From Gonapodya prolifera JEL478 (taxonomy: Eukaryota > Monoblepharomycota > Monoblepharidomycetes > Monoblepharidales > Gonapodyaceae), in assembly GCA_001574975.1 (NCBI GenBank), contig KQ965751.1, forward strand, positions 302,466-366,465: DNA of 64,000 nucleotides, given 5' to 3'. Within the stretch, counting starts at the first letter, position 1; each line of letters starts with the position of its first letter. Below the pieces are notes generated by a model. The model made no database searches. It saw only the letters and a program-made list of their open reading frames with translations, and was not told where the DNA came from. Made by a program: the position numbers and the translations under genes. This document shows, piece after piece, positions 9,201 through 45,876 of this stretch.

Positions 9201-12200
9201 TCCAAGAGTCTGTTTGCGTGTTGTGTGATGCAATGAGGTCTGTGGAGTAGCCTAACGGACTGTGGATCAAGTATGGTCGAAATGAAGAAGTGACACATCA
9301 TGAATAGTGCAACTCTTCAACTCACCCATTGTACACAATCGGGACGTTTTTGTACTTGACGTCAAACGCTACGTTGGACGTATTGTGACAGTGGCAGGGG
9401 ATACTCGACTTGATCATGCACCGACGCTCCCAATTGTTGGCACAAACGTTGGTCGAAACGTTGGAACTTTGGCGAGCCCCAAGACGTCCCAGAGCACCAT
9501 GGCCGGGAAGGCCTGGCGACTCAAGATCAATCAAATCGCGACGGGTCAGCTTAAGGGTGGCACCAAAGCATTCCGCAGGGAGAGCGCCCGATTGGGGGTT
9601 AAATCGTGGGAAGTACGCGGAGACATCCTTGCAACAGCCCAAAATCGAGTTGACATCTCTGCTCTAGCAATCTGAGCAACCCAAAACGTCATTCTCACCT
9701 TTCCTGCGAACTGGTAGTAAGTTGCCGTCAGATCCAAATCGTTGGGTGTTGGGTGGTAGTAATAAGACATATCGTACACAGCTCCGTTCCAAGCCATCCA
9801 CATATCGCGAGCGTCGTAATTGTTGTGCAGTTTAATATCATCCAAAGACCGAATGTCTGATGATGGACACAAAAGGCGACCGAAACCTTGTACGAAGAAG
9901 AGCAGGAGACCCATAAGAAGGAAGAATATGACGTTGATTGCAAGCTTTTCTCTCCAAGCCTATCACCACAGTGAAAGTGACTTTAAGTAGCGCAGCGATG
10001 AGATGATAAGTGTCAAACTCACTTGTCTCGTCTCCGAGTTCCTCATTTTGCCACACTTCGTGAGACAAAAGTCGGGGACATACCACGTCAGGCACATCGT
10101 GATACACATCCATCGCTTCCTGGACGGAGAGACACGCTCCTTAGGCTTCTTCTTTCCGGCTCCCTTCTTGCCACCCTTCTTCTTTCCCTTCTCCAAATCA
10201 CCGCCTTTGGTTGTGTCAGCGACCGTCGACTTCTCATCATCGATGAGATTGTTGGTGGAGTTGTATTCGGACCCAGCCACGCCGTATCCGATTTGGCTTC
10301 CCGCCATGTCCGTCATTTCCATTCCGTCACCACCAACTCCCGGGATTCCATCGTCCATACCGGCCCTGTTCTCCGCCGCTGCTTCGGCTCTCTGCAGAGC
10401 ATCTGCGCCCGAAGGCGACATTGGATCCGTGAACGGCAAGAACACCCTCTTGAACTCGGCCGGGGCTCCAAAGTCAAGCAGAGCCTCCAAGTTCCTCCAA
10501 ATCGTTTCGGTGAGGAACATACGCTCGCGGCCCACATAGGCCTGATCCTCCCTCCAACCCTGGAATCGGACGACGTCAGAGCATTTCTGGCGTAGCTCCT
10601 CCAAAGAGCCCATGATAGCCTCCGTTTCCACATCATACACAGGGAACTGTTCAGGGAACAACACGGACTTGTACCGGTTGAGGAAGAAGTTGAAACCGCA
10701 TCTGAACAAACAAGGAGTGAAAACAGCATTGTAAGATAACTGGGCTAATGTGACGCAGACCGACACCAAACCACTCACCGAATGGGATAATCCGTCTGCA
10801 ACGCCCTCGTAATCCTCACGATCGCCATCGCCTGCAGCTGCTGCTTAAACTTGGCCTCGTCGACAGCCATCGCCCTCTTATCCGCGTTAGGGTTGATACA
10901 GAACGCATACCAACACCTCGCCTCACGCACAACCATCAAAAGCTCCTCCAGGCCCGCTTGCAGACTCGCAAAGGTCGACGACGAGAACGACGCTGGTTCC
11001 TCAGGCTCGGACTTCATGCTGGGCGCACCACGCGATTGGGAACGCACGCTCTGGCGCGACTTGACCGACAGCCGGCTCATACCAGCTTCCTTGGGGTGTC
11101 CCTTGACTGTAGGGCGGTGGCTCGACTGGCGTCTGCGCGCCATGACGACCGACCGACGACTGCGCGGGTGCAGAATGTCGACCTTCTGGTCGCGGAAGAG
11201 GCGGGCGAGGAAGGTGCCGGCCTTGCCGCGAGGCTTCCCGCCCGTGCCGGCGGGGTCGAACAGCTTGAAGTAGTCTTGTGGCATGTAGGTCTTGTTTCGG
11301 GCGACGAACCCGGCGGAGTCGTAGGTGACGGTCCCGGGCGAGTGGCGGATGACGAACTGGAGGGGCTTGCGACCCGCGGCCACAAAGGTATTGTCCTGGG
11401 GTGGAGCATACGACGTCAAACCAGTGTCGAGGCCAAATCAAGGGTGAAAGCATACACACCCGTTGCAGCTGCTTCACAGCCTCGATCACCTCGCTCTCCT
11501 TCCCAGCGTCTCCCTTCATGTTAGCCTGCTCATCAAGGTGCCTGATCAACCCCCAGCTCCTGTCCTCGAACACGCTAAGGCAGCTTCCCTCCTCGGGGGC
11601 CTCCACTTTTCCACCCACAGGCACACCCTCCCTTGCGTAGATAGCGCGCTCGTTGTCAACCAGATCGCGGAGCGCAAACTCGTGGATTTTCTCTACGGTG
11701 TAATTTGCCATGAGCTGCTGGAACCCATTGACGGCCGCGGGCTGGCAGTCCTCGAACCCGGCAAGGTCGAGGATCCCAATGAAGTTGGCCGGCTGGTTGG
11801 AGCACAGGCGGTTGTTGACCGTCTCCACGACGTGCTGGAACAGAAGCGAGTACACCGTCGTCGCGAGCTGGTCACGTGCGGCACGGGCTTGCGACATGTT
11901 GAGGAAGTTGGTGCACACGGTGTCCCCAACGAGGACGTTCTGGTTCGTCAGTGCGGCATCCAGGGCCTCGGGCTTCACGCCCAGGAGTTGGGCCGCAACC
12001 TCGAGCTGGTCAAAGTTCTTGACCACGGCGTCGGCGTCGTCGCCCGATTTGCCAGTGTCGACCTTGAACTCGATGTTTCCGAGGTGAATGATGCCAGCAA
12101 TGGTCTGGAAGATGGCGCCCTGCACGCTGCGGTTGAACCCCAGCGTCTTCATCACGCTCCGAAGCAGTCGCATGTTGGCCGCGTCGTCGATCCCCGCAGC

Positions 12201-13243
12201 TTTGTGGTTCCTCGCGCCGGCAAGGTACGTGAACTTGCTCGGATCCGCGCCCAGCCTCCACGCCGCGCGCTCCTCTGCCGACGCGCCCGCCATGACATAG
12301 TAAAGCACGTGGAAGTTGCGCTCGCCCTGGGGCGCTCCCGCGATCCGCGCGGCCTCGTGCGCCGTGACGACGACTTTGGTGCCGATGAGGGTGTTGTCGG
12401 TGTCGTACTGGACCTCGATGTAGCGGTTGTACCGCGACGAGTCCTCGTTGAACCGCGTCCGGGCGTTGCCGAACGCGTCGATGCAGAAGAGAGAGTTGTA
12501 GGCTTCGGTGGGGAGGTGTTCAAGGTCGTCGAGGGGTTCGGTGACCACCGAGGCGGTCCGGGAGGACAGGTAGGCGAGTTGCTCGAGGATGAGTTTGGAG
12601 GAGTTGGTTTTTCCGGAGCCGGATTCACCACTGGATGAGGGATTCAAGGAAAAGAGGAGGAGGAAGGTGAGTAGGGTGTCTGGGTTCAAGTGCAGCTTCG
12701 GGAACATGGGAGTCGAGGTGTGGCTTCCATTCCGACTTGGCAGTAATTGCTTGTCCAGCTGCACAAGAGCCTCAATACTTCGCAAATCCTCCGAAGCATC
12801 ATCGAAATATGAAAGCTCAATCGAGGAGCATCCGTCTCTTAAGACATGCGTCGAGGAAGCAATCCTACATCCACCTCCTCGGTCTCGTCTCGTCTTCGAA
12901 CCATGTGTACTCACGTCAGAATAATGACTTGGTCTTCCTCGACAGCGCAAAGGTGCATGTATGCACCGGAAGCGATCTCCCAGAGGTGGGGATCCTTCCT
13001 GGTGCTCCCACACACTTGCTCGACATCGTACTCCTGGGGGTTTGGAGGGGGAACCGGCGAGCGGCACCACGGGTTCACAGCGACGAGTGCTCGAGGGGAT
13101 ATGGAGGTATAAGCGAGGCCCCGGGAAAGACGCGTTGCGAGAACCGAGTAGAGCGATTCTTGCGAAATCTTTGACGAGCTGATAGTTGTGAGATCGGATG
13201 GCAGGTCCTGCGCACCGCCCGCTTGCTGGGGATGCGAAGCCAT
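6235..13243 (-). CDS. Class V/VII-type chitin synthase with myosin motor domain
   Basis: Twelve exons on the minus strand (12915..13243, 11460..12630, 10779..11395, 10023..10701, 9699..9959, 9326..9663, 8956..9259, 8823..8897, 8096..8758, 7494..8037, 6654..7427, 6235..6581) sum to 6102 nt, exactly 2034 codons. The enzyme polymerises UDP-GlcNAc into wall chitin at the plasma membrane, with a motor that tethers or moves it on actin. Order: myosin head about 1-740 (P-loop GESGSGKT, switch I region EDSSRYNRY, DLAGFED), membrane segments, cytochrome-b5-like patch near 960-1010 (DMWMAWNGAVYDMSYY), GT2 core about 1240-1660 (LVPCYTEGED, VDADTEV, GEDR, QRRRW near 1588), membrane helices, Gly/Met/Pro-rich linker and DEK_C domain in the last 58 residues. 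The 66-nt intron 7428..7493 is a multiple of three and stays open if unspliced. The ATG at 13243 gives the family-like N-terminus. An ambiguous base falls at 8339. Confidence 0.95.
8339..8339. other. Ambiguous base (n) inside the chitin synthase
   Basis: The only non-ACGT base seen. On the coding strand it is the third base of a CAN codon (His or Gln) in the GT2 domain, just before FRSAMPPLE. The reading frame is unaffected. Confidence 0.95.
12631..12914 (-). other. Long intron splitting the myosin P-loop
   Basis: Donor GTGAGT at 12914 after VIILT and acceptor CATCCAG ending at 12631 before GESGSGKT. At 284 nt it is over four times the usual intron length in this window. No gene or repeat is seen inside it. 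Confidence 0.8.
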
Positions 13244-14417
13244 TGCTGGATGGTGACGAGTGCGAGAGGGACGGTCACTTCGTCAAGAGGAAGCCTGAAT
13301 CCCACGAGGCGGTGCGAAGCCCAGTGAGACCATTCGCAAAGGTTCACCAATGGGCGAAGACGAAACAGAGAAACATCAGTTGAGAACGATAGATTGTCTG
13401 CATGGCGTGGGGAGGTGCTCACCTTCCTTGCGAGAGAGCGTCGTTGAGCCGCTGATGTGGTGACCGATAAAGCTCACGCCAGAGACCGCCGATTGACGTC
13501 TTTAGTAAAGAGTATAGACTTTCTGTAGCGTAGTAGAAATTGAAAATGCGTGGAGGACACGCAGCCACCGAGAAGCCGATTGCGAGGCTGTCAGGCAGCT
13601 TGTCCCAGCGAAGAGGAAACAAGAGAAACACACCGCCGTCCGCTTCTCCTTCAGCCCAAGTCCACTGTCGCAATGCCGCTCTCCTTCTTCGTTAGCGCTT
13701 CCTTCGCAGGTCGACGCGGGTTTCTTTTGTGCGTGCGTCTCAACGCGGCAAGTCCCTGACACGCGAGCTGCGCCACCAAAGGCGGCGTGCAATAATCTCG
13801 CCTCGTTTCGGTAATTTTTGTGACAAAACTTTATTCGTCGCATTTTCGCATATGCAAATTAAACTTCTTCATGGAGTGCACGAAAGGTTCGTCTTGTCCG
13901 ACCTGTTTCTGCTTGCCGGCGTATCCTTCCCTGCAAGCATTCGGTGCGGCAAAAGATCTCATGCCCAATGCGGACACACAAACAGCCATTCAAAGTGAGC
14001 GCACCTCGACAGAGCAAATTAACACGACGGAAGATCCGCAATCTTTTCGATCGGTCATCGCACCGTCATGTGCGTCCGCCCTTCCGAGGCCAAGACCCTC
14101 CAATCGTTACCTGAATGAATTCCCCTTACGTCACTGGAAGCCACACGAATAAAACACACCGAATTGTCGTTATAGCATGGCATATCAACGGAGAAAAAAA
14201 CAACTGCAGACGTAGGTCCACGCACAAGTGAAGACCCCCAAGCCAGAAAATCGGTATACCATATGTCGTTCAAAAGAGTCTGAAAATTACATACACTTGT
14301 CGGCTCTTAGCTGGAGCGCCGACTTATACAAAGGCGGGATCACATCAACCTGTGACACCCCTGCCAGCTGAATAACTTTGTACACCTTTGTCCAACAATC
14401 CAGAGGCGGACTTCCGA
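13244..14417. other. Divergent intergenic region
   Basis: About 1.2 kb between the chitin synthase start (minus) and the F-box gene (plus), so it should hold both promoters. No convincing ORF. Bases 13931..13975 (gcaagcattcggtgcggc, then aaaagatctc) are nearly repeated at 17162..17200, on the other side of the F-box pair. Confidence 0.6.
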
Positions 14418-27049: not shown

Positions 27050-28434
27050 GTCTCGTGGACGCAAAAGGCGTTTTCACCGATACAACTATGTCTCTGATGG
27101 GAACGGATTCAATCGCATCAGCGTGCAGGCGGCGCCGGACGGTTTCGTTTTCACTGGCGACACAACTGTTCGCACTCGAGATGTCGTTCGTGCCTCCACG
27201 GCGGACCAACTAGCATATGTTCCTCTGTTTTGTTGGTGGTTTGTCAGACGATCTGACTGATGTCATCGCAGCTCGAGTCCATAAAGTTTGTTCAACATCA
27301 AACAACAAAAGAAGTGGTGACGTGGGCACATTTTGAGAAGAGACAGGATTACGCTTTGGGTCAAGTTACCGTCGCACACGGAGCACCGGGCGGCCCAATG
27401 ACCTTCGTGGGCACGTTCAGGCCAGCTGGCGATGCCAGCAGAGACATGACGTTTTTTGACGGCAGTGGATACACTATCAGTGCCATGCACACGTAAGCTT
27501 TCCAAATAACAAATTTACACGTCATCATTTTCTCTCATGTGACTCGAATGACCAAATCCCTGCAGTAACACCGATCTCGGGCTCTACAGCCTCGACGCGA
27601 CCTGGACCAACGTCACTGCCAAAGTTGCCTCTCTTATGGCCGGCCAGCGACACGAAGCACCAGCCATGGCTGTGCGGGAGGGCACCTGCTACCTGCTCAC
27701 CAGCGCAGCCCCTGGTTGGCTTCCGCGCTCTGGCAATGTCATCAGCAGCACATCTGTCTCCGGTCCATGGGCTCAGCCACAGTTTCGGGAAGCGTGGACA
27801 CATTTGGAGCACAATCAGGGGTCACAGTAAACATCGGAGCGACGCAGCTGCTGGCGGCAAATCGCTGGGCTGCCCAATGGAGCCCCGCTCAAGCTGGAGA
27901 AACAGACAGATTGTAATGCCGATCGCATTTTCTGGAGGTTTCGCGAGCTATAATTTCTTTGAGCGTCTTTTGTACTCTACATTCGACGTCATTCCCATAC
28001 AATCCGGTCGGATTCTTAGTGTGCGAAAGCCGTGCTCGTCCAACGTGGCGACCTCGACCCGAACGCCTGCACTTGCTGCAGACGGGACTCAAAATGACCC
28101 TGCAAACGTCTGGATCCCCGCGTCGGTGCCGTTCTGGTGGGAAGTGGATCTCGGCTCGGTGTTCACCATAAAGCGCGTCGATGTGAGAAGCAAGTCAGGG
28201 GGAGTGAAGTGTTCCTCAAGTACACCGTTGGGGTTCGTAGGACACTGTCACGTTCACCACGCTCATTGTCCGGTCGGGGAATACTGAGGACGTGGGGTTC
28301 ACGACCGATAGAGTGAACACAACAGGATTGTACAGGTACATTAGACTCACAGTGAGCAGAATGATCAACGTATACAATGGGAACGAGGCTGACTGGAGCG
28401 CTGGACTGCATGAAGTCACAGTGTATGGCTTTTA
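27050..28434 (+). pseudogene. GH43-type glycosidase with F5/8 type C domain, frameshifted
   Basis: Pieces of a five-bladed GH43 propeller appear in order: SDGNGFNRISVQAAPDG near 27100, LESIKFVQHQTTKEVVTWAH from about 27273, GTFRPAGDASRDMTFF, then (after a normal intron at 27493) NTDLGLYSLDATWTNVT, RHEAPAMAVREGTCYLLTS and SGNVISSTSVSGPW. A discoidin/F5/8C carbohydrate-binding domain follows (VWIPASVPFWWEVDLG, TIKRVDV) and ends with RYIRLTVS and LHEVTVYGF. Joining them needs frame changes near 27770, 27905, 28205 and 28240, and no N-terminus or signal peptide is visible. The family includes exo-beta-1,3-galactanases. Best read as a pseudogene, unless several small introns were missed. Confidence 0.6.
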
Positions 28435-28821: not shown

Positions 28822-31800
28822 TCATCTCCAGCTGCCCTTACCCATCCCGGCCGCACTTCCTGTACTCCCTCCCCTCGCATGACCCGCTACTTTATTCCGC
28901 TCCTCCATCGCTCGCGCAAGCTGCGCCTGTATACCGCCACCGGCCGCATTCGAAGCCGTTGAGCGCGTCGACGCACTGTCCCCAGTCGCACTCCTACCAG
29001 GCGTCAGAACGCCACCAGGATACGCCTGATACACTGGCTCCGCAACTGGCACCCCCTGGTTGTAATAGGCGTACCCGGCGTCGACTCCTGTCGTCGTGGA
29101 CACCATTCCCAACGACCGTCCAGACTTCCCAGACCGCGCGCTGGACCTCGGCGGGTCGGCCCTCGCAGCTGCGGCGGCCGCTTGCTGTTGTTGTACGAGG
29201 TACGCCGCGCCGGGGTTCATCGGTTGCACGTACGGCTGGTACCCGGGCACAGTCGCAACAACGGCGGGTGCCGCACCGTACAAGTGTGCCAGAGCAGGGT
29301 GGGCGTTCATAGCGGCCGCCTGGGGATACACCATATGCGCTGGCACGACAGGAGTCCCACCGCCGCTTCCTTCAATTTCCGAGCCGGCCAGCGAGCCTCG
29401 CGAGCGATGCGATGGGGTCTTTCCGGCGCCCATCTGGACAAGCGGCACGCCACTGGGGCTGTACACAAGCGACGCGGTAGAGGTGTCGTCTTCGGACATT
29501 CCGCCCCGCATCGGCGTCGCGTGGGGCGAGCCGTCCCGTCCCGGACTTGTTGGTGCAGCGCCGTACCCGCCAGGCCCGCGCGGCGGCGATCCGGGAATGG
29601 GCGCCGGGGCGTAGTAGTCATACAGGGCAGGGTCGGGCTTTGTGATTGTTGGGGAGGGAAGTTTGGCCATCTCAGGAGGGAATTTAGCACCGGGTGAAGG
29701 GACGGTTTTGCTCGCGGTGGAGCGCGGCGAGCGAGGGTTGTTGTTGTCTTCGTCGTCTGAGTCGTCGTCGTTGTCTTCTGACTTGCGCTGTGGGAGAACA
29801 GGCGGTGCGGGGGAAGGGGGAAAGTTTGGGTCAGAAGACGAGAGTAGCGCAGTGGCGGCGCACATACCTTGCGCGCCCGCACAAACACCACGGCCGCTGC
29901 GACAATCCCCACCGCCACACCCACACCAACCGCAATCCCGACCACCGCCGGAATCGAAACACCCTGGTATACCCACCAACTACGTTAGTACCCTCTTCAC
30001 AGACACCCCACACCTCACCCGTCAACTCACCCCACCACCACCCCCAACATTCGTCTGGGCCACCGCCGTAGCCGTCGGCTTCCCCGCTGTCTTTCCACCG
30101 CCGTTTCCTAGGATGACATCGACCTTCTCGACGCACCGACTCCCCGCGGGCGTGTTCTTCCCCGACACGGACGTGTTGACGGCCTGCAGTTCCTTGAAGA
30201 TGAGGTCGGCGTACGAGGATGTGGGCAAGTTGGAGCAGGGGATGTTGAGTTTGTCCAGGGAGACGTCGCGCAGGAAGATGGCGCCGAAGGTTGGGGTGGT
30301 GCGGACTGCGGGGGGAGGAACGGTGTGAGTGTGTGGAGGGGGAGGATGTTGTGAAGGGTTTGAGAAGATGGTACTTACGTGCTTGAATGAAGTTGTTGGT
30401 GTAGAAAGCCGTCACGTTCACGAAATCGCCTGCCTACACACAGAACCATCTTCGCGTCAGTCCCATCCCACCCTTCCCCGGCCCCGCCCCCCACCAAACC
30501 CACATTCCCCCCCACGACCCCTTCATACCCCCACCCCACATTGGGCAACTCCACTCCAAATTGCATCTTGTCCACCCCGCCAGCCCAATTACTCCACGCG
30601 TTCACGGCCGCGAAAAATGCGTCCGAGCCACCGGCCCAGGAACATGTGGTGTTGATGAAGGAGAGGACCATGTAGTCGATGAGGGTTGCGTTGGTGCCGA
30701 GCAGGGTCGAGCTGGAGGGGCCGAAGAAGGGCGAGGGGAAGGTGCAGCTGACGGTTGCTGGTGTGGGGTGTGCGTGAAGGGTGGTGGTGGTGAGGTAGGA
30801 AAGGAGGGCAACGGGCGCAGAAAACGCGGGGACCAAGAACGGAACTCACCCGAAATAGACATATAGGTCGGCAACCCATAATAATCCGCCGGGCTGCTCA
30901 CATTCCTCCAGGGGCTCGTATAATTCGCCAGGCCCGTCCCCGCGGGCACGTCCGCAACAACCTCGCCCGTCCCGTTCGCGGTCCACACTGTCCCGTTGTA
31001 CACGATGGCGGTTCCGTTGAGCACGGCCGTGGCGTTTACAGATGGTGTGGTGGGCGCGAGGGGGTCAATACCGTTCATGAGCGTGCGGAGGGTGGATACA
31101 AAGTTCGTATAGGCCGGGGCGGATTCGGTGGGGCTGCGATTTGGTGTGATAGTAAGCGTCGTACTCACAATGGAACACCTTGACTTGACTCCTTCCCCCC
31201 CGCCCACCACTCACTTAACAACCTGCACATCCAACCCATTCAACACCGCATCGTCGAACGGCCGCGGCGCGCCCTGGATCGTCCGGTCAAAGAACATGGA
31301 GTAGATCTGGTACGCAGACCGGTTGCCGTCGCTTGGTGTGAGCAGGTCCGCGGGTTTGGAGGCTGTGGTGGGTGGTGTGTGAGTTTGGTATTCCGCTCCA
31401 AGTGGATCGTTCGCCTCCGGCGGAATCCTCGGTCGGCGCTATCGCGCCTAGGCCTCGATGAGGGCCTCGGTCGGCGCTTATCGGCGCTTAGGCCTCGAAG
31501 TCCTCGATGCGCTCGCGGGTCAACTCACCCAACTGCAACACCACTCTGACCCCAACCCTCTGACACGCCTTAATATCCTTGCCAATCTGCGGACAATACA
31601 ACAGCGTATACCCATTCGTCTTGCTCTCGTAACCCGTATACGCCTGGGCGCCCGAGAACGAGCAGTGGTTCGAAAAGTCGATTCCGGGCGCGTTCTTTGT
31701 GGAGAAGTGGGAAAAGATGCCCTGGATGTAGATTGTGGAGTATTTTTGGAGTTGGCAGACGGCGGCCAGTGTCGCTTCGGATTGGGCCGTGTCGAGTTGG

Positions 31801-32050
31801 GCGATGGTGTTTTGGCCCCAGTAGCCGACCATCTGCGTGGCGGTGAGGGTTGGGGTAACGTGGAGAGTGGGGCAGGAAGGTGAGGTGGGTGTGGATGGAG
31901 AGGCTGGGAGAAGCGAGTGCTCACTTGGAAAGGAGTTCCCTTATTGATGGTGTCTGGCGGTATTCGCGCATGGACGGGGGCAGCGACGAAAAGGAGTGCC
32001 ATGAGGGAGAGCACAAGAAGCGAGAGAGTGTTTTTCTGCGTTGTTGGCAT
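28822..32050 (-). CDS. Membrane-anchored GH18 chitinase-like protein A, catalytic Glu absent
   Basis: Nine exons (31925..32050, 31529..31832, 31215..31362, 30850..31133, 30504..30757, 30379..30433, 30031..30305, 29868..29963, 28822..29787) give 835 residues with all phases matching. Order: signal peptide (LLVLSLMALLFVAAPVHA), class III chitinase-like GH18 domain about 43-450 (VGYWGQN, FSNHCSF, CPQIGKDIKACQ, RPFDDAVLNGLDVQVV, SWAGG...WSNWAGGVDK), a Cys/Gly stalk, one membrane helix about 486-509 (VVGIAVGVGVAVGIVAAAVV), and a 321-residue tail that is acidic, then Pro/Ser/Ala-rich with QQQQ, ending IQAQLARAMEERNKVAG. Active GH18 enzymes have DGxDxDxE; here it reads NGLDVQVV, so the acid Glu is absent. 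Inference: a chitin-binding surface receptor, not an enzyme. Paralogue of the next gene upstream. Confidence 0.87.
31400..31510. repeat. GC-rich tandem/inverted repeat inside an intron
   Basis: Two imperfect ~38-bp units (cctcggtcggcgct, then taggcctcga) lie in the intron between exons 2 and 3 of GH18-like gene A. Internal palindromes (cggcgc with gcgcc) could fold. The same intron in the paralogue is 60 nt against 166 nt here, so this looks like an insertion. Confidence 0.7.
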
Positions 32051-32757
32051 CGTGATGGGACGGGCGAAAGGGGAGACGCAAAGAAACCCAACCCGCGGGA
32101 AGGGACGGGAATGGAGCAATAACAGGCACCCATCGGCGCCATTCGAGTATTGAAGTAACAACACAAAGATTAAGCACAAATAGAAATGGGTCAGTCTCTT
32201 TGGCGTGCCCGATATGGAACCAAAAACGCACCGAGTCACTCCCCCGTCGGCTTGCACATCCCATCGCCACCGCCACTCCGCCCATCGCTGCTGCCCCGCG
32301 TCTTCCCATCACTGTCTCCCGCGTGTGGCGCACTCTCCGCTGACTCTCCATGCGTGCGCCCGCTTTTTGGTTTGCAAGGGAAAGGGTGAGGACTGGCGTG
32401 GCGCATCGTCGGGTAAACCTCTGGCAAACTTGCACCCTCACGCAGGTGGCGAAGACAATAATTTCAATTCTTTTGTACTCTACAAAATCTTTGTATTTAC
32501 TGCACATACTCTCTGCGACCGAGAAATCAGACCAAGCAGACCGCTTCCCGGGCTCACACATTCGCCATTGCGAATACATACGCAGCATCGTTGCAAATCT
32601 TCGAATTCAAAACGCTCTCTCTCAATGTGCCCTTTTCCCAAATGTTCGCAAACTATGCTGCATGGTGTGCAAATCTAACCTCGCTATTTTCATTAAAATC
32701 CAAGTACCTCCCACCTTGCCCAACCACCAACCACCAACCACAACGCCGAACCCATCA
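32051..32757. other. Intergenic region between the GH18-like paralogues
   Basis: Holds the promoter of gene A and the 3' end of gene B. The 32190..32450 part is C-rich and the 32440..32720 part AT-rich. No gene recognised. Confidence 0.6.
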
Positions 32758-35700
32758 TCACCTCCCCCCCTGCGCAGCCCTCCTCCGCTCCTCCATCGCC
32801 TTCATCAACGCCGCCTGAACTCCCCCTCCCCCACCTCCTCCAGCACCCGCACCGGGACTCGCTGGTGCTCCTGCACCTCCCACCATTGCGGCAGCACTCC
32901 CCTGTGTATTTGTCGACGCAAGCGACGCTAACGTCGTCTGACTACCCGACACAGGCACTGCTCCTGTTCCTGAGACTCGGACGGGCGACGGCGGTGCAAC
33001 TGAAGAAAGGTTACCCGCCGCCACACCGGTACCGACTTTCTGATACACGTATCCCCTGGTCGTTTTCCGGCCCCTGTCCTCATCCTGTCCCATTGCTTGC
33101 GCTTGCGCCTGTGCCTTCCTCTGCACTTTCGCAACACCAACACTCCCCCGTCCCACCAACGGCGCATCCTCCCCACTCCCGCCACTCGCCGCACTCGACG
33201 GCGGCCTCACTGTGGCCGCGAACCCCAAATCCGCCACCACGACCGGAACAGGCATCGCCAGCACAGGCGGCTCGGCCATACGCGTCGTCGAGACCATCCC
33301 CACAGGGCCGCCCGCGTCACTCGTCAACGGTATCGAGGGCGACCGCGCAATCGCACCCCCAAGCACGGGGGAGGACGTCGACGTGCGTCCCAACGAAGGC
33401 GCCCCCGGGGACCCGACGCGGGCCGGGGGTGTGGCCGCGAGCGGGTACGGCGATTGCCGAGTCAGCGTGGACGTGGACGCGGACGCGGCGCCGGCTGTGG
33501 GTGTTTTTTTGAGTGGGAATGTGGGTGTTCCCGCGGGGGAGGGCGGGTTGGTGGAGGGAAGCGATGAGGGGTCTACGAGGGCGCGCATCTCGGTCATGCT
33601 GCCCAGGGATCCGGACGGGTCGGGGCCGCGGTCGCGTTTGGATCGCTTCTTGGACGGTTTTGAAGGTGCGGGGGCCGGTTTCGCGTCGCCGTTGGTGGAC
33701 CCTGCGTCGGAGTCGTCGTCTTTTGTGCGGGCCTGGTGGGTTGGTCGGCGCGGCGCGTCAGCAACGATGTTGCCAAGCCGGTGGAAGAGAGAAAGCAAGG
33801 GCACTCACATAAACGGACCGGTAGGTCACGAACGCCGCCCCCCCAATCACCGCCACACCCGCAAGTCCTCCGACCGCAATCCCCGCAATAGCGCCCGTGG
33901 TCAACCCACCCCCCGACGTCGCAGCCGGTGTCGCAACGGGGCTCACAGGCCCCGCCGGCCGGCCCGTCCCGTTGCCCCTGCCCTGCACCACGATACTGTC
34001 CTTCCACACGCACTGCTTCCCCACGGGCGTGTTCGTCCCGTCGGCGGTCGTGTTGAAGGATGTGAGGTCGGTGTAGAGGAGGTCGACGTACCGCGATGTG
34101 ACGAGGGTGGAAGGGGCGGTGCAGGGGAGGTTGAGTTGGTCGAAGGAGGAGTCGTATAGGGAGACGGCGGTGAATTTGGATACGGTGCGCAGGCGGGGGA
34201 TGAGGGAGGCGGAGTAGAAGAAGGTGGTGTTGATGAATGTGTTGGGCTGGGATGGTACGGTGGGAGGTGGAAGAGGCATTATCAACGGGCGTCCGGTGTG
34301 GCAATTGTGTAACTAAACGTATCAGCTCACATCCGACTCCGTAAACGCCTCATACCCCCAACCCATATTGGGCAACTGCGCCGCAAACTCCAACTTATCC
34401 ACGCCCGCAACCCAGTTGCTCCAACTCTGCAGGTTCGCCCAGAATCCGTCCTGGTTCGCCCACGTGCAGTTGGCGCCGTGGCGGTATGATACGAGCAGGT
34501 AGTCGAATTTTGTGGGGACCACGGAGAGGAGCGTATTGTTGGAGGGGCCCAGGATGGGGTCGGGGAGGTCGCACCCGGTGAGGGTTGCTTGGGGGGTCGG
34601 TGCGGTGGTGCGGTGAGCGTGCTACGACTGCGAGACTAGCGATGCGATATCGCAAACTCACCAGACAATGTAAACGTCGTCGGCAGCCTATAATAATCCA
34701 CCGGATTCGACACATTGGTCCACGGCGTGGTCTGCGGCGTCCAACCTGTGATGTTCCCCGTCACGACTTGCCCACCTCTTCCCACCGTCGCGTTTCCGGC
34801 AGCAGTGCCGTTGGTGCCGTTGGTGCCAGAGGGGGTGGCGATCCAGGCGGTTCCATTGAATACGGCGGGGATGCCTGTGTTTCATGGAGGCCGTGGTATG
34901 GTTGGTTCAAGTGGTGGGAAAAAAGGGTACAACGGACTAACCTGATACGTTCGCAGCGGTCCCAGACAAGGGAGGTGGGTCCTGTCGGTTGAACAGCGCT
35001 CGAAGCGTGTTCACAAATGCGCGGTATCCGTCCTGGGACTCAGTGATACTGATGGCCAACAACGACCATTGAAGCATTAGCATGTGCGGCTAATGGAATC
35101 ACTGGCCGATATAAACTCACTTGAGCTGCATGTCGAGCCCATCAAACACTGCATCGTCAAAGGGGCGCGGGTCTCCCGGAACGGTACGGTCGAAGAACAT
35201 GGAGTATATTTGGTACGCTGACCGGTTTCCGTCGGATTCCGAGAGCAGGGTGACCGTTTTCGGGGCTGGAAGGGTCCATTGCATCGGTGGCCCATTCACA
35301 AACAGGCATCACAAGCTCCACTCACAAAGCGTCAACACAACCCTCCTCCCGACTCTCTGGCACGCCTTGATATCCTTGGCGATATCGGAGCAATGCAAAA
35401 GAGTGTAACCGTTGGTCTTTGTCTCGTACCCGGGGTACGCGAACGCCCCGCCAAACGAGCAGTGGGAGCTGAAATCCATCGATGGCGCTCCCTTGGTCGC
35501 GAAGTGGTCCAGGAGGTACCCGACGTGGATGGTGGCATAGGGAGTCAGCTGGCATGTTGATGCGAGGGTGCCTTCCACTTTGGAAGTGTCGAGCGAGGCC
35601 ACGCGGTTCTGCCCCCAGAAGCCGATGAGCTGGGCGGGAGGGAAGGTACGATTGCGGGAGGGGAGAAGAAGGGGAAGCGTGATGAGATGGGGCCTGATGG

Positions 35701-35856
35701 GCCTTGGAAGACAAGGGGGTTTCCACCAACCTGGTACGGTGACCGGGGGTTTGTGATGTCCGTTGGCAGAAGACCCAGCGAGAGCTCTGCCAGGAGAGCT
35801 ACGCAGAGGACGTGGACTGTCCAGGTGCGAAACGGGGGCGAACTGTTTCTGGCCAT
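32758..35856 (-). CDS. Membrane-anchored GH18 chitinase-like protein B, catalytic Glu absent
   Basis: Eight exons (35731..35856, 35326..35629, 35121..35265, 34942..35048, 34662..34874, 34331..34587, 33809..34246, 32758..33732) give 854 residues. Same plan as gene A: signal peptide (VHVLCVALLAELSLGLLPTD), GH18-like ectodomain (IGFWGQN, SSHCSFGG, CSDIAKDIKACQ, RPFDDAVFDGLDMQLN), membrane helix near 500-525 (GAIAGIAVGGLAGVAVIGGA) and a 325-residue Ser/Pro/Thr tail that begins basic (KKRSKRDRG) and ends VQAALMKAMEERRRAAQ. The catalytic motif reads DGLDMQLN instead of DGxDxDxE. Exons 1 and 2 have exactly the same lengths as in gene A (126 and 304 nt); B lacks two introns near the membrane region and has one extra in the ectodomain. 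Likely chitin or oligosaccharide binding at the surface, by family and inference. Confidence 0.87.
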
Positions 35857-36340: not shown

Positions 36341-38025
36341 TCATCGCATACCCACCCAACACACCGCCATCGCCACATTCAGCGCCAAACATATGGGCGC
36401 AATCGTCCACACGCCCGCCGACTGCGCGAGCAGGCCCACAACCCAGGGCACGAACGCCCCGCCGACGTTCCCTCCCGCCACTACAAGGGCAAGACTCGCA
36501 CTCATCAGGTGGTCCAGTTTATGATTTGTGATCTCGTCCGCCACGACGGCGATAGCCGTGGGGAAAAGGGGGCCTTGCCCCAACCCGGCGAGGAGAAGCC
36601 CGAGGCCGTTCACCGGGATGCTGTTGAACGCCCACACGAGTGCGATCCCGATGAGACTCATGACCATGTACAGGTATGGGGAGCGGTACTGTCCCAGGCG
36701 GTGCGTGAGCGGGACGAACAATATACGGGAGATGACGAGCCCGGACCAGAACAGGGAGACGAGGGGCCCGAGGGTGGAGAGGGGAGCGGGGCGGTAGGCG
36801 GAGAGGAAGGTGAATATCTGGTTGAGGGGGTTGGGCCAGGTGAGTGGTAGGGGGCGCGAGGGGGATACGGAGGGGACTTACCCATTGCCCGATAGATACT
36901 TCGCATCCAACATACACAAAGAGAAATACTGTGCCGACCCAGACGTGTCGTTTTCGGATCGCAGAAAGGTATTTTTGGGATGATGAAAGCTCCACAAGGA
37001 CTTGACTGGCAGGTGAGTCCGAGGACTCCTTGGACTTAGCCGTCTCGACGGGCTCCGCGTCTTCCAAAGGGATGGCATCAGATTGCACGTCGGAGGCGCC
37101 TTTCGTCTCCACACTTTCAGCTGCAGGTACGTGATCATCCAACAGCGTGACGGAAGTTGCGCTGCCACTCCCTTCTGTGCGACCTGACTCAGAATCCGCT
37201 AGCTTCTTTCGTCCCCAAGGGGTCAGATACGCCCCAGCAACGAACAGGCCAATATACGTCCCTATCCCAATCCACACAATATACGCCGCCCTCCACGTAT
37301 GCAAGTACGACACGTCTGGCGGACACGAATCCCCCGGCGTTCCAGCCTCCCCTTGGCCTACATTACACCCTCCCGCGATCAGTATGCTCGTTACGACAGG
37401 TGGGCCAATGAGCCCCCCGACCCCGAAAAAGGCGTGGGTGTAGTTGAGCACGACAGTCGAGAGTGGAGCGGGGAAGAGGAGGGAGACGGTGTTGATTCCG
37501 TTGTCGATGAAGCAGAGGGAGAAGCCGAGGAGGATAAACGTGGGGAGGGCGACGCCGAAGGGGGTGGGAGAGGCGAGGAGGCAGTATGCTGGAAGATGGG
37601 AGGGGGACCGTCAGTGTGACGTTTTTGGGGTTTCGTTCGGGCTCCTCACCTGCCATCGTCGAGGCAATCCCGTAACACACAGCCCCCACCACCCCCAATC
37701 TATCTGCAAACCATCCTTGCAGGAACGAGCTTATCACGAATCCCGCACTCGACATGATGTACACAAGAGATGCCAGCCCTTCGGAGACGCCATGGGTGTT
37801 CCGGAAGAAGGGCAGGACGATACCGAACCCGGAGTCGTTAATTCCCAGCACGAGGGCGACTTGGAAGACGCCTGGAGGAGGGAAACGACGGAAAGGTGGG
37901 AGGCGGAGTGGTCGATCGCGCTGATAGGAAGGGGAACGGAACGGGAGCCGAAAGTGCTCACCAAGGATTTGGAGGACTGTCCGTAAGCCTCCTGTACGGA
38001 CTTGGTTCCAGGATTCTGCCCACAT
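36341..38025 (-). CDS. MFS transporter (12-TM), intact tandem copy
   Basis: Four exons (37962..38025, 37650..37871, 36882..37588, 36341..36817) give 489 residues with matching phases. Membrane helices are clear: FQVALVLGINDSGFGIVLPF, SLVYIMSSAGFVISSFLQGW followed by the MFS loop motif ADRLG, FILLGFSLCFIDNGIN, and in the second half SPYLYMVMSLIGIALVWAF and SASLALVVAGGNVGGAFVPW. A long charged loop (about 265-330) separates the halves. It resembles the fungal BSC6/fucose-permease-like MFS group; the substrate is unknown. Downstream-facing neighbours are GH18-like gene B and its own broken duplicate, 0.25 kb upstream. Confidence 0.85.
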
Positions 38026-38278
38026 CGCGGCGGGAGGGCAAGGGCAGTCTCGTCACGGAGGATGGCGACAACCGTACTTGATTTCACATTTAGCCGGTTT
38101 TGCCGGAGCCACATAATGACCATAAAATTTTTGGGGTGTTGAGAACGCGGATAGCTCCTTTTTAATTTCTTGTGTGTCTTGGTGACGAATGACAAGTAGG
38201 TGATGAATGACATGTAAATGTTTGTTATTTAATGACAATTCTGTACTGCTGCTGGAAAGGCCTATTCAACCTATAAAT

Positions 38279-39946
38279 TCATCTCATTCCCACCCAACAA
38301 ACCGCCATTGACACATCAACGCCAGGCATATGGGCGCAATTGCCCACACACCAGCCGACTGTGCGAGCAAGCCCAACAATCCAAGGGACAAACGCGTCTC
38401 CAACGTTCCCTCCAGCCACTACAAGCGCTAAACTCGCAGCCATCAAGTGGTTCGACTTTTTTTTGGAAATCTCGCTCGGCACAATGGTGATGGCAGTCGG
38501 ATAAAGGGGACCTTGCCCAAGCCCTGCCAGAAGAAGTCCCAGCGCGTTCACCGGACTGTTGGTAAAGGCCCACACGAGTGCGATGCCCAGGAGGCTCATG
38601 GCCATGTATAAATAGGCAGTGCGGTATTGACCCAGGCGAAGAGTGAGGGGAACAAAGAGGATACGGGAGATAACAAGGCCGGACCAGAAGAGGGATACGA
38701 GAGGACCAACGGTGAAGAGCGGCAAGGGCCGATACGCAGAGAGAAATGTGAAGATCTGGTCGCGGTGGAATCGTGAGAAAATGATAAGTTCAGGAGAGTG
38801 ACTCATATTGGGGCACTTACCCATTCCCAATCGACACTTCACATCCCACGTACACGAAAAGAAATATTGTGCCAACCCAGACGTGTCGCTTGAGGATTGA
38901 GGCTAGGTATTCTTGCGAAGAGGAATTCTCCACAACGACCTGACTGGAAGGGTGTCCGGAGATTCTTTGGATGTTGCCGCCATTTTGGCAGTTCGCTTTA
39001 CATCTCCCAACGCGACGGTATCAAGTTGGACGTCAGAGACGTCTTTTGCCTCAAAACTTCCGCCTGTGGGAACGTGACCATCCAGCAGGGGGAGGAGGTT
39101 GCGCTTCCACTCACATCTGCGGGAACTGATTCAGAGTCCGCCAATTTCTTCCGGCCCCAAGGGGTCAGGTATGCTCCAACGACGAACAGAAAAATATACG
39201 TCCCTATCCCAATCCAGACGATGTATGCAGCCCTCCACGTATGCAAGTACGACACATCAGGTGGGCAGGAGTCCCCCGGTGTTCCAGCCTCTCCCGCTTG
39301 GCCCACATTACAGCCTCCAGCGATCAATAAGCTCGTTACAGCAGAAGGGCCGATGAGGTCTCCGACTCCAAAGAGGGCATGCGTATAGTTGAGAACGGCC
39401 GTGAAGAGGGGAACCGGAAAGAAGAGGGACGTGGTATTGATTCCGTTGTCGATGAAGCACAGGGAGAAGCCCAGAAGGACGAAGGTGGGTAGAGCAACGG
39501 CGAAGGGTATTGGAGAAGCGAGCAGACAGTAGGCTGGCCAATGAGACGTGAAAATTTGGGGGTTTTGTGAGGTTGCCGCAGTTCTTTCCTCACCTCCCAT
39601 TATGGATCCGATCTCGTAGCACACGGCGCCAACTACACCAAGTCTATCTGTAAACCATCCTTGTAGGAACGAACTTATGATAAAGCCGGCGCTCGACATG
39701 ACGTAAACAAGTGAGGGAGGCCCTGTGATACGCCGTGAGTGTTGCGGAAGAAGGGAAGCACGATACCGAACCCGGAATCGCTGATTCCTACTACGAGAGC
39801 GACCTGGAAGACTCCTGGTGCGGGAAATGGCGGAAGGTGGAGCGGACGATCGCGCAGAAGAACAGGAATGCGAAGCACTCACCGATGATTTGGAGGACAG
39901 TCCGCAATCCGCCCGTTCGGACTTGTTTCCATGATTCTGCCCACAT
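38279..39946 (-). pseudogene. MFS transporter, broken tandem copy
   Basis: Collinear with the intact gene at 36341..38025, including an identical first-exon length (39883..39946, 64 nt) and the same end (AVCWVGMR). Comparison shows a one-base loss near 39718 (SQG then PPSLVYVMSS in another frame), another near 39103 (after SGSATS), another near 38940 (in the loop after PDTLP), one at the exon 3 end (GGGAATGG against GGGCAATGG, about 38823) and a +1/-1 pair near the C-terminus. Several independent one-base lesions make sequencing error less likely than decay. The gene would not make a full transporter. Confidence 0.8.
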
Positions 39947-40273
39947 TGCGGCAGGTGTTCGGAAATCTTATCCATGGGCTTGGACGTCGTCCACGGTTCT
40001 TCCTTTGGCGGTTTTGCCGGAGCCCTCCGCTCCTCCGACCTGCTTCGACGCAGTCACGTGTTCTGCTTCGCTATTTCCATTTCCAGTCTATGAAGTCTTT
40101 TCGTGCTTTCCTGCGCCAGGTTGTCTGCTCAGGCGTTGCCGCTTTGCCACCGTCAATGGGCAGACTCGTCTTCGCCAACGAACATTCTTCACCGGACGTG
40201 GATTTAAACCTTCTCGGGGTCACTGTGAAATACCATTCCAATCTTGCACCGCAAGATCCCGCCTGTTCTTCCA
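39947..40273. other. Divergent promoter region
   Basis: About 330 bp between the broken MFS copy (minus) and the TLC-like gene (plus). Expected to hold both promoters. No element identified. Confidence 0.5.
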
Positions 40274-43087: not shown

Positions 43088-45876
43088 CGGTCTGTCACGG
43101 TAACACAGAATATGGACTATGAGGCGGGGAATCAGATTGGTTCGGATATGTTGTGCTCAGTGTCGATGATTGCGAGAACGGTGAGTAATCCGCCTCGATG
43201 TCGTGTTACGATGGAACTAACCCCTCATGGACTTTATTAACTTTTCCCCTGAAAAGTATGCACACTCCTCGGCTCCACACTCCTCGGCTTCACGCTCGCC
43301 ACGGACGGCATTTGCTACTGGAAAAACACACTCGACAACCAGGGTATGACATACTCGGTGAGCCTTTCATCGTGTGTCGTACTTTCCTGGTCGTTTGCCG
43401 TTTGGTACAGCTCACGTGCCAATTGCCAATTGCCGATTCCCAATTCCATTGCTTGGTCGTAGTGCTATCCCCAGCAGCGCAAGACCAATGCACCACCGTC
43501 TGTACCTACCTCTCAACCTGCGTAGTCAATGCCATGTTCGACGGTGGATGTAATCTCAATGTACGTGAATATCTTCTGTCTTCCGACTGGTGAATGGCGG
43601 CCTCCAGAGCTCAAACTCACATGAGAAATGACACCACCAGTCCGCTGCACAGAACGCCGTGACGGACTCGACGTGGACTGCGTACGCGCGCGGACGAGCG
43701 GCGGTAACGCCTCCTCCTCCTCGTGAGTCTTTGGCTGGAATGATGAAGCAGGCTTGGCGAAGTGCTGATTGTTTCGTTCGTTTCGCGGAAGCGCCGATAC
43801 AATCAGCTCCCCCGCCACCTTCACCTCCCTGCCACTTCCGCCACCTCCTTCAATCCAGCAACCTCTCGCACCATCTCCACCACCACCACCTCCGCCTTCC
43901 TCACCTTCCACGATTCCCACGACTCCCACACCTTCAAATTCACCTTCTACACCAACTCAACTTCCCCGTCTTCTCGCCACCCACTCCATCTCCACTCACC
44001 ACTTCCTTACCGCCACAACCCTCATTCGACCCTATCGCACCCGCACCTGCCGCATCGCAGCCTGTACTATCTCGGCCACAACCGACGGCAGGAGGACCCG
44101 CCCCGCACCCCCTCCTGCTCTCAATGTTTTTAATACCGTTCAGATCGTGTCTGCTACCGTGAGCGGCACGTCTGTCACATCGGCGGTGGTAGTATCGATG
44201 TCTACGGTAACGGGGGCGAGTGGCACTCTTGCTACGACGACACCCACGGCGGCGGCCGCGGCGAACGCTGCTGCGACGGCGCCGGCGACGGAGACGGCGA
44301 CGGGGACGGGGACAGGAAGTGACGGTGGCGGATCGCCTACGAACGAAGGGTTGATCGCTGGCGGTGCGTTTTCTTTGATGTCGTCATTCCACGCAAAGTT
44401 CTCAAAGTGTGGTGATGACATCCGTTCCTTCCCACGGGCAGTCGCAGTCGGCATCGGCGGCCTCATCCTCATCATCGTCATTGTCGTCGGCGCCGTCTTG
44501 TACACCCAAAGACGTTCCCCGCCGCCGGACCGTCTCGGCACCGGCTCGTCTTTTGAAAGGTAGCACCCGGTCACGAGCTCCAGTCGGTTCGTGGGATCTG
44601 CCTAGTCCCAAATATCGCCCTTGATGAATGGACCGGAAATGGAGCGGGCGACTGGATCTGGGGCAACTTCTCTGCTCGGTAGCACTGGAAGTGATTATGA
44701 GCAGTGCGAATGCCGCTATAAGTGGGTCCAACCAAATCGTCTATAGGAGTCGCGGGGTTGGTGACAAAGTAAGTTCGCAAGCGGTGGACTGTATTTATGA
44801 TGACGTGGTGATCTAATTACGATTATGGGGGGGTACGCAATCGCCAATCAACCGCACGTAAGTTCCACATTTCAATACTTCCCATCACTCCTTACTACAA
44901 CCCACAACCCACATGATACTGAACGCAGATCGCACTTCCAGTGGCTCTTCATCCTCGTCGCCGGCCTGTCGACCGGCGCTGGCATGGCCGGATCCCTCGA
45001 CGCGACCGACGTCGCCTTTGATGGGCCGGGTGCTATTGCGATACGGACGTACCGTCCCGCGTCGGATGATGAGTGTGAGTGTCGGTTTTGAACAGTTTGT
45101 CTCGACGCGGCGTGCGACGTGCTGACGACGGACGACCTCTCCTCTAGTGTCAATCCAAACTGGCCAATTCGTGCAGATTATCAAGGTCTCCGTGATGGGT
45201 GAGCGAACGGAAAGGTCAGACTGATACATTTCCCTGACCTGGCGTGGACCTTTCGTCAATAGTGTCGGCTTGGCCTGTCGCCTCTCCGATCCCGATCCAC
45301 ACAATTCTCAGAACTTCGATACCGCAAAAACACGGCATCTTCCCCCTGGACGTGCTGAGACTCACCGACCTAGTCACGTCGGAAGTCTCCTCGATGGGCC
45401 TGCAACCTCCACTTTCCAGTCTACGCACGGCGTCTCGACACGCGTACACGCCGGGTGGCCAATCGGCGAAAACTTAGCGCCGCTCTTGTATGGACCTCGC
45501 GGGATGCGGAGTGATACCGCGATTGTGAACGTACGTCAACCCTGCTATTTTTGCGATGAGTGCATTTTGGCAAACATCCGCCTCTGTTCGCATTTCGTAG
45601 CCCTCGTCAGACGTGCGTGGTCCTTTGTCCGTCACGTCAAGCAGCTTGACGTCGTCGACGTCCACGTCCCCGACATCGTCAACGTTGGGTGTCGGTGGCT
45701 CCTCGGTTCTAGATGTGCAGAGAGTGGACGAGACGAGGAGACCTGCGGGTGATGAGAATGCAGTCTCAACTATTTCATTTCTATTTGAGTGTTGTTTCGT
45801 GATCTATGTCGTAACAAAAACTTACACTGTACGTTGTGCAAGAGTTGGACAAGTTATATATGCTTATGCTTTTTGA
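43088..45876 (+). pseudogene. TM-SH3 receptor-like gene, copy I (broken)
   Basis: Collinear with the intact copy II at 50087. Ectodomain pieces: TQNMDYEAGNQIG, CTLLGSTLLGFTLATDG, AQDQCTTVCTYLSTCVV, TDSTWTAYARG. Then a Pro/Thr-rich stretch, NTVQIVSATVSGTSV, the membrane helix (VGIGGLILIIVIVVGAVLY), and SH3 parts (AIRTYRPASDDE, IQTGQFVQIIKV, GIFPLDVLRLTD). Lesions: a one-base loss after NQIG (about 43140), loss of the second half of exon 2, a stop after the QRR helix border (about 44562), a one-base gain before the GIFPLD segment (about 45335), and the stop codon changed to TCA so the frame runs on to 45876. No signal peptide with an ATG was found. Confidence 0.75.

Follow-up and report, generated by a model that had tools for sequence, protein, structure and literature searches.

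A putative membrane receptor family with catalytically degenerate, chitinase-like ectodomains in the fungus Gonapodya prolifera

The stretch of DNA analysed here (the window) comprises 64,000 nucleotides of contig KQ965751.1 of Gonapodya prolifera JEL478 (assembly GCA_001574975.1, positions 302,466 to 366,465 of the forward strand). It carries two neighbouring genes, A and B, each of which encodes an outer domain resembling a glycoside hydrolase family 18 (GH18) chitinase, one membrane helix and a long cytoplasmic tail. The catalytic motif of both is degenerate, and the question raised by the locus is what such proteins do once the enzymatic residues are gone. The comparisons described below make a receptor role likely, and the chances are about even that A and B, within a type I single-pass family of four types, are surface sensors or adaptors acting via a C-terminal helix of the tail.

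The initial annotation had placed a tandem pair on the minus strand, and both genes were recovered at those positions. The models were rebuilt manually from the minus strand, and every intron is of the GT-AG type:

28822-32050, minus strand: gene A, 9 coding exons, 835 amino acids, hand-built GT-AG model with an open frame; exons 31925-32050, 31529-31832, 31215-31362, 30850-31133, 30504-30757, 30379-30433, 30031-30305, 29868-29963 and 28822-29787
32758-35856, minus strand: gene B, 8 coding exons, 854 amino acids, hand-built GT-AG model with an open frame; exons 35731-35856, 35326-35629, 35121-35265, 34942-35048, 34662-34874, 34331-34587, 33809-34246 and 32758-33732

Six introns are common to the two genes, in the same place and phase (the last one within about 2 residues of alignment), while two are private to A and one to B. 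Intron 2 of A contains a GC-rich repeat of about 130 bases (31388-31518), which recurs at many sites across other contigs and is hence a dispersed repeat.

Each protein starts with a signal peptide and a domain of class III GH18-like type, and a single membrane helix connects these to a tail of around 325 residues. Topology was read from the hydropathy of A and B, and it agrees with the single pass and the long tails proposed at the outset: in addition to the N-terminal segment, one internal membrane segment is present at residues 477-514 of A and 497-527 of B. A further stretch of B that rises above the hydropathy threshold, residues 685-706, is taken as part of the tail and not as membrane-spanning.

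29880-29954, minus strand: membrane helix of A by hydropathy, IPAVVGIAVGVGVAVGIVAAAVVFV, ends approximate
33821-33892, minus strand: membrane helix of B by hydropathy, AIAGIAVGGLAGVAVIGGAAFVTY, ends approximate

A Gly/Thr/Ala-rich stalk precedes the membrane helix and an acidic stretch follows it (EDNDDDSDDED in A, DDDSD in B). By a simple motif count A has 11 N-glycosylation sequons, and B has 13, its tail not included.

The class III-type GH18 domain claimed for these proteins is borne out by similarity searches, though Pfam is silent. Yeast Cts1 (PDB code 2uy2) was matched by phmmer with E-values of 1.5e-10 for A and 1.1e-12 for B, and a four-member family profile searched against PDB sequences reached 5e-18 for the same protein. 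Judged by name, 22 of the 23 distinct PDB sequences listed for the profile are class III-type chitinases or inactive proteins related to them, including hevamine, ChiA1, XIP, haementhin, concanavalin B and a chitinase-like lectin; the remaining one is a chance match (E 0.46). The relationship is not due to chance, and by homology the ectodomain is of class III GH18 descent. The similarity lies mainly in the first half of the barrel, where the profile match is strong; in the second half hevamine is matched weakly, with a domain E-value of about 0.005, and the match to Cts1 is not significant. Even with E-values of up to 10 allowed, the Pfam model PF00704 matched neither A or B nor the ectodomains of the four types, and a genome-wide search with it listed none at the seven loci described below.

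The active form of the catalytic motif is DxxDxDxE, and the degenerate versions of A and B had been read exactly by the initial annotation:

31217-31240, minus strand: catalytic motif of A, NGLDVQVV
35121-35143, minus strand: catalytic motif of B, DGLDMQL(N), with intron 3 splitting the last codon (AA|T)

The four types were aligned with sequence fragments of Cts1 and hevamine. The motif reads NGLDVQVV in A, DGLDMQLN in B, DGIDLYIL in C and DGLNLEIT in D, and DxxDxDxE with its acid/base Glu occurs in none of the four; positions 6 and 8 differ from type to type (Q/V, Q/N, Y/L and E/T, in the same order). The SLGG strand (SxGG) has become LASK, LSPK, ISPK and LAPK (L/I-[AS]-[PS]-K), with a Lys invariant in the four types in place of a Gly. 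At the catalytic Tyr site QFY is replaced by SFI, SYR, AFR and SYL, the Tyr being I, R, R and L, and the Trp-containing ALW strand near the end probably corresponds to FLR, SLY, SLF and ALQ, in a weakly aligned part. The adjoining RPFDDA and WGQN motifs are retained. Active class III chitinases such as yeast Cts1 and ChiA1 of A. fumigatus have a homologous ectodomain and are not known to have a receptor-type tail; DFDIE, SLGG and QFY, all present in the Cts1 fragment, are all replaced in this family. The catalytic Tyr of hevamine is Tyr183. For PPL2, a class III protein, PMC12355970 gives Asp125, Glu127 and Tyr182 as catalytic residues, and all four types have other residues at the positions of Asp125, Glu127, Tyr182/183 and SxGG. 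The reported loss of Glu stands and understates the change, as the neighbouring Asp, the catalytic Tyr and SxGG are replaced too. Because the SxGG replacement with its invariant Lys is common to the four types, inactivity is most likely older than the duplications that produced them.

An active chitinase arising through alternative splicing, the outcome that had been named as refuting the idea of dead proteins, is not supported by an enumeration of GT-AG pairs around exons 3 and 4 of the seven copies (a span that opens 80 bases ahead of exon 3 and closes with exon 4, introns of at least 30 bases). DxxDxDxE was restored by 0 of 1430 pairs; two pairs in A place a Glu last (NGLDVQVE and NGLDPLEE) with the rest of the motif not restored.

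The replaced residues bear on the ligand. As far as is known, dead GH18 lectins keep most of the sugar site, and it was from such lectins that binding of chitin or wall fragments had been argued. As far as chitin is concerned, that argument is not supported as stated, the -1 site residues being replaced in all four types by alignment (with the Trp position weakly aligned). A receptor for chitin or chito-oligosaccharides, in which the dead cleft would still bind N-acetylglucosamine polymers as a lectin does and the tail would report the binding, is consistent with the class III ancestry and with the presence of chitin synthase genes in the genome. A precedent is MpChi from Moniliophthora perniciosa, a fungal chitinase-like protein that has lost catalysis and, according to PMC8960721, still binds chitin oligomers. 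MpChi is secreted, not membrane-bound, and the same paper names two substitutions in it, E167Q and M238L, whereas several conserved elements are replaced in each of the four types here, differently in each (motif positions 6 and 8, the Tyr site). Since the catalytic site is remodelled more widely than in MpChi, chitin appears a doubtful ligand, and a chitin receptor of this kind is unlikely.

A and B are not an isolated pair. Exon-wise searches with both genes through the genome (47.6 Mb, 207 contigs) found seven loci of four types, so that the pair originally described is real and understates the family. Contig 21 carries A and B, and contig 27 has a near-copy of each, A2 and B2; type C is present on both contigs and type D on contig 4. 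Ectodomain identity is 94, 97 and 93% within the near-copy pairs and 41–59% between types. All seven assembled models have open frames and, by alignment, the same layout of N-terminal hydrophobic stretch, ectodomain, membrane stretch and tail. No relatives elsewhere were confirmed from 27 pattern matches in viral contigs and 162 in genome contigs, neither of which is a fungal collection.

Contigs 21 and 27 are called as sharing a duplicated block, of which A2, B2 and C2 are the near-copies, because a match to the chitin synthase model PF03142, a gene resembling amino-acid permeases, A, B and C follow one another in the same order on both, the PF03142 match on the same side of the other genes. 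A DNA search that scored 38 of 170 candidates, and that omits the window and A2/B2, gave two main flanking matches on contig 27, 68 and 74% alike. Synonymous divergence (dS) between the near-copies is 0.31–0.44 in the ectodomain and 0.55–0.89 in the tail, which looks too high for ordinary alleles. Homeologs, a hybrid genome and an old segmental duplication are options for the block; the intraflagellar transport gene IFT46 is matched at one place only.

Selection was measured on the near-copy pairs by the Nei-Gojobori method, comparisons between types being near saturation and unused. The ratio of nonsynonymous to synonymous divergence (dN/dS) in the ectodomain is 0.073 for A/A2, 0.062 for B/B2 and 0.100 for C/C2, and that of the tail is 0.069, 0.109 and 0.112, respectively; the signal peptide is looser (0.208, 0.147 and 0.378). 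The values of 0.06–0.11 in ectodomains and tails indicate that the dead proteins are used and working. Together with the open frames in seven models, they rule out decaying pseudogenes.

The tails are 180–360 residues long across the family, consist of Pro, Gly, Ser, Thr and Ala to 52–61%, and have diverged in sequence between types. One element is common to all four types, the motif QxxLxxAMExR at the C-terminus, with 4 to 26 residues following AME:

28891-28932, minus strand: C-terminal tail motif of A, IQAQLARAMEERNK, conserved in four paralog types
32773-32820, minus strand: C-terminal tail motif of B, VQAALMKAMEERRRAA, predicted to form a helix (residues 305-320 of the tail)

Of the alignment columns filled in the four types, the terminal block has 15, of which 6 are invariant, and the remainder of the tail has 125, of which 7 are (Fisher p 6e-4, for a block picked after the alignment was seen). 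The corresponding DNA pattern has eight matches in 47.6 Mb, namely the seven source loci and one other open reading frame (ORF), on contig 87, which by eye is unlike the family proteins; the reversed pattern used as a control has one. With seven of the eight matches in the source family, the motif is not supported as a general tag carried by many proteins, as far as the exact pattern goes, which misses looser forms. The last 25 residues of B used as a query matched B and B2 only and were too insensitive to find A, C and D.

AlphaFold2, given the contiguous last exons of the seven sequences with B first, predicts a tail that is disordered apart from a single C-terminal helix. In the B tail 269 of 324 residues have a predicted local distance difference test score (pLDDT) below 50, and the one helix, residues 305-320, coincides with the motif (block means of 71 and 81). 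When A and B were scanned with Pfam over their whole length, with E-values of up to 10 admitted, no kinase or other domain was found in their tails. The signalling through the tails that had been suggested thus has in its favour a conserved, predicted-helical element of the kind that signalling or adaptor binding would need; signalling itself may be proposed on that ground.

The constraint on the tail also bears on the possibility that these proteins are structural wall-membrane tethers or adhesins, in which a glycosylated barrel and the tail would join wall to membrane with no specific signalling. The sequons and the Gly/Thr/Ala-rich stalk would suit such a role, while a passive link is not expected to need a tail of 180–360 residues, a dN/dS of about 0.1 and a conserved terminal helix. 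Passive tethering is accordingly given a low probability.

Comparison with known systems helps to outline how a sensor or adaptor of this kind might work. The ectodomain of the tobacco receptor CHRK1 is of the class V type and, as far as is known, has no catalytic Glu. CHRK1 combines a GH18-type extracellular domain, as in A and B, with an intracellular signalling domain, the role proposed for the tails of A and B. It differs in having a kinase, of which there is none in A and B, and the family described here is class III-like and fungal, with a disordered tail ending in a helix. The review PMC5485988 gives 91 plant sequences that combine GH18 and kinase and describes the ectodomain of CHRK1 as predicted to be enzymatically active. 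A GH18 ectodomain on a receptor is therefore not new in itself, given these plant precedents, and the present family may be regarded as a fungal, kinase-less counterpart that arose from a class III-like GH18. The wall-integrity sensors of the Wsc/Mid2 type are similar by description: an extracellular part, one membrane domain and a cytoplasmic tail. In PMC7915640, Wsc1 is described in these terms, its tail interacting with Rom2, and differs from the present proteins in its WSC-domain ectodomain and relatively short tail.

In the preferred reading, a class III GH18 chitinase became the outer domain, its catalytic machinery probably having been lost before the types diverged. The domain would now be a glycosylated module that either binds a ligand or bears tension, turned towards the wall of the fungus itself or towards a matrix outside it, and its ligand would probably be something other than chitin held in the old -1 site. 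The C-terminal helix with QxxLxxAMExR would most likely dock a common cytoplasmic partner, for which a Rho exchange factor, an endocytic adaptor or a secretion component are candidates. We infer the surface location, the ligand binding and the docking from this layout; the working mode may be akin to that of the Wsc/Mid2 sensors, or to that of the plant GH18 receptor kinases minus the kinase.

Several observations weigh against this reading. A2 lacks an ATG at the start position of A and needs an upstream one (its model begins at an ATG in frame, 39 bases ahead of the codon that corresponds to the third residue of A). Only 18 residues of the tail model have a pLDDT of 70–90 and none reaches 90. 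The helix is not detectably amphipathic, 36–99% of shuffles giving an equal or larger moment, and the idea of an amphipathic helix was dropped. The membrane helix of B/B2 has a dN/dS of 0.43, over 29 codons only. The contig of type D, contig 4, has no listed PF03142 match, and the linkage to chitin synthase is probably one ancestral arrangement copied once.

The last two points also count against a further alternative, in which the family would work at the membrane as pseudoenzymes that regulate or chaperone enzymes, either those of chitin synthesis or the other chitinases. A parallel is the inhibition of xylanases by dead class III plant proteins of the XIP type. XIP, haementhin and concanavalin B, which share the fold sub-family, are among the profile matches; these three are soluble plant proteins and are not known to have a membrane helix or a tail. 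The chitin synthase match that the block contains on both contig 21 and contig 27 would also fit, the interaction itself being conjectural. A regulatory role of this sort is improbable.

Within the window the chitin synthase matches lie at some distance from A and B:

6628-13274, minus strand: chitin synthase ORFs at 6628-8782 (PF03142, E 6e-115 and 1.8e-90) and a myosin motor ORF at 11001-13274 (PF00063, E 5.5e-80)

These ORFs presumably form one gene, which is context and not part of the receptors; the translation of 8057-8782 holds one ambiguous residue. PF03142 is not specific to fungi, as it also matches in 4 of 14 control genomes, all of them prokaryotes; here the E-values go down to 2.6e-176. 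An IFT46 gene is present, with no match in the 14 control genomes, and together with the myosin-motor chitin synthase it suggests a flagellate, chitin-making fungus, probably of a chytrid-like kind.

Other neighbours are less clear. Upstream of B there are two tandem transporter-like genes (36341-40053, minus strand), for which PF07690 scores just above the cut-off at 36344-36877, below it at 36522-37610 and 38282-38902, and not at all at 39001-40053. An ORF convergent with A (27460-28287, plus strand) matches F5/8 type C (galactose-binding) weakly, with a score that falls short of the curated cut-off. A Ser/Thr/Pro-rich ORF at 43769-44563 (plus strand) contains one hydrophobic stretch, GIGGLILIIVIVVGAVLYTQRR, and belongs to no clear family.

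The genome also has recognizable GH18 genes. PF00704, a model that matches in 6 of 14 control genomes as well, gave 34 exon matches elsewhere, spread over 13 contigs. Ten open frames from 9 regions (of 13 regions on 12 contigs) were inspected, and among them are the intact-looking motifs DGIDIDWE, DGVDIDWE and DFDWE, others being intron-cut or degenerate. On contigs 122 and 124 a hydrophobic segment lies ahead of the GH18 domain, and these genes are candidate N-terminally membrane-anchored chitinases. A 147-residue fragment of Cts1 as a query gave seven matches, one per dead locus (E 2.5e-7 to 0.054), and no active class III relative was detected in the genome with this single query, which a gene that is weakly similar or absent from the sequence data could escape.

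In the literature searched, no fungal family of membrane-anchored dead GH18 proteins was found among the matches listed, which does not by itself establish novelty. A paper on Rhizoclosmatium (PMC12115818) covers 49 GH18 genes. To our knowledge, the sensing of walls and solid substrates in zoosporic fungi is poorly understood, and receptors of this kind are hard to recognise. Pfam is blind to the domain in the present family, yet a receptor family is what homology, selection and the tail helix common to its members all suggest. The analysis offers concrete targets, the ectodomain for ligand screens and the helix of about 16 residues for partner pull-downs. A broader proposal can be made only tentatively and is rather doubtful: the whole detectable class III lineage of this fungus would have turned into a receptor class linked to chitin synthase, with a remodelled cleft marked by the invariant Lys and one docking helix feeding a common pathway for the sensing of wall or substrate. 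If this is true, a whole detectable enzyme lineage would have been turned into pseudoenzymes within one genome.

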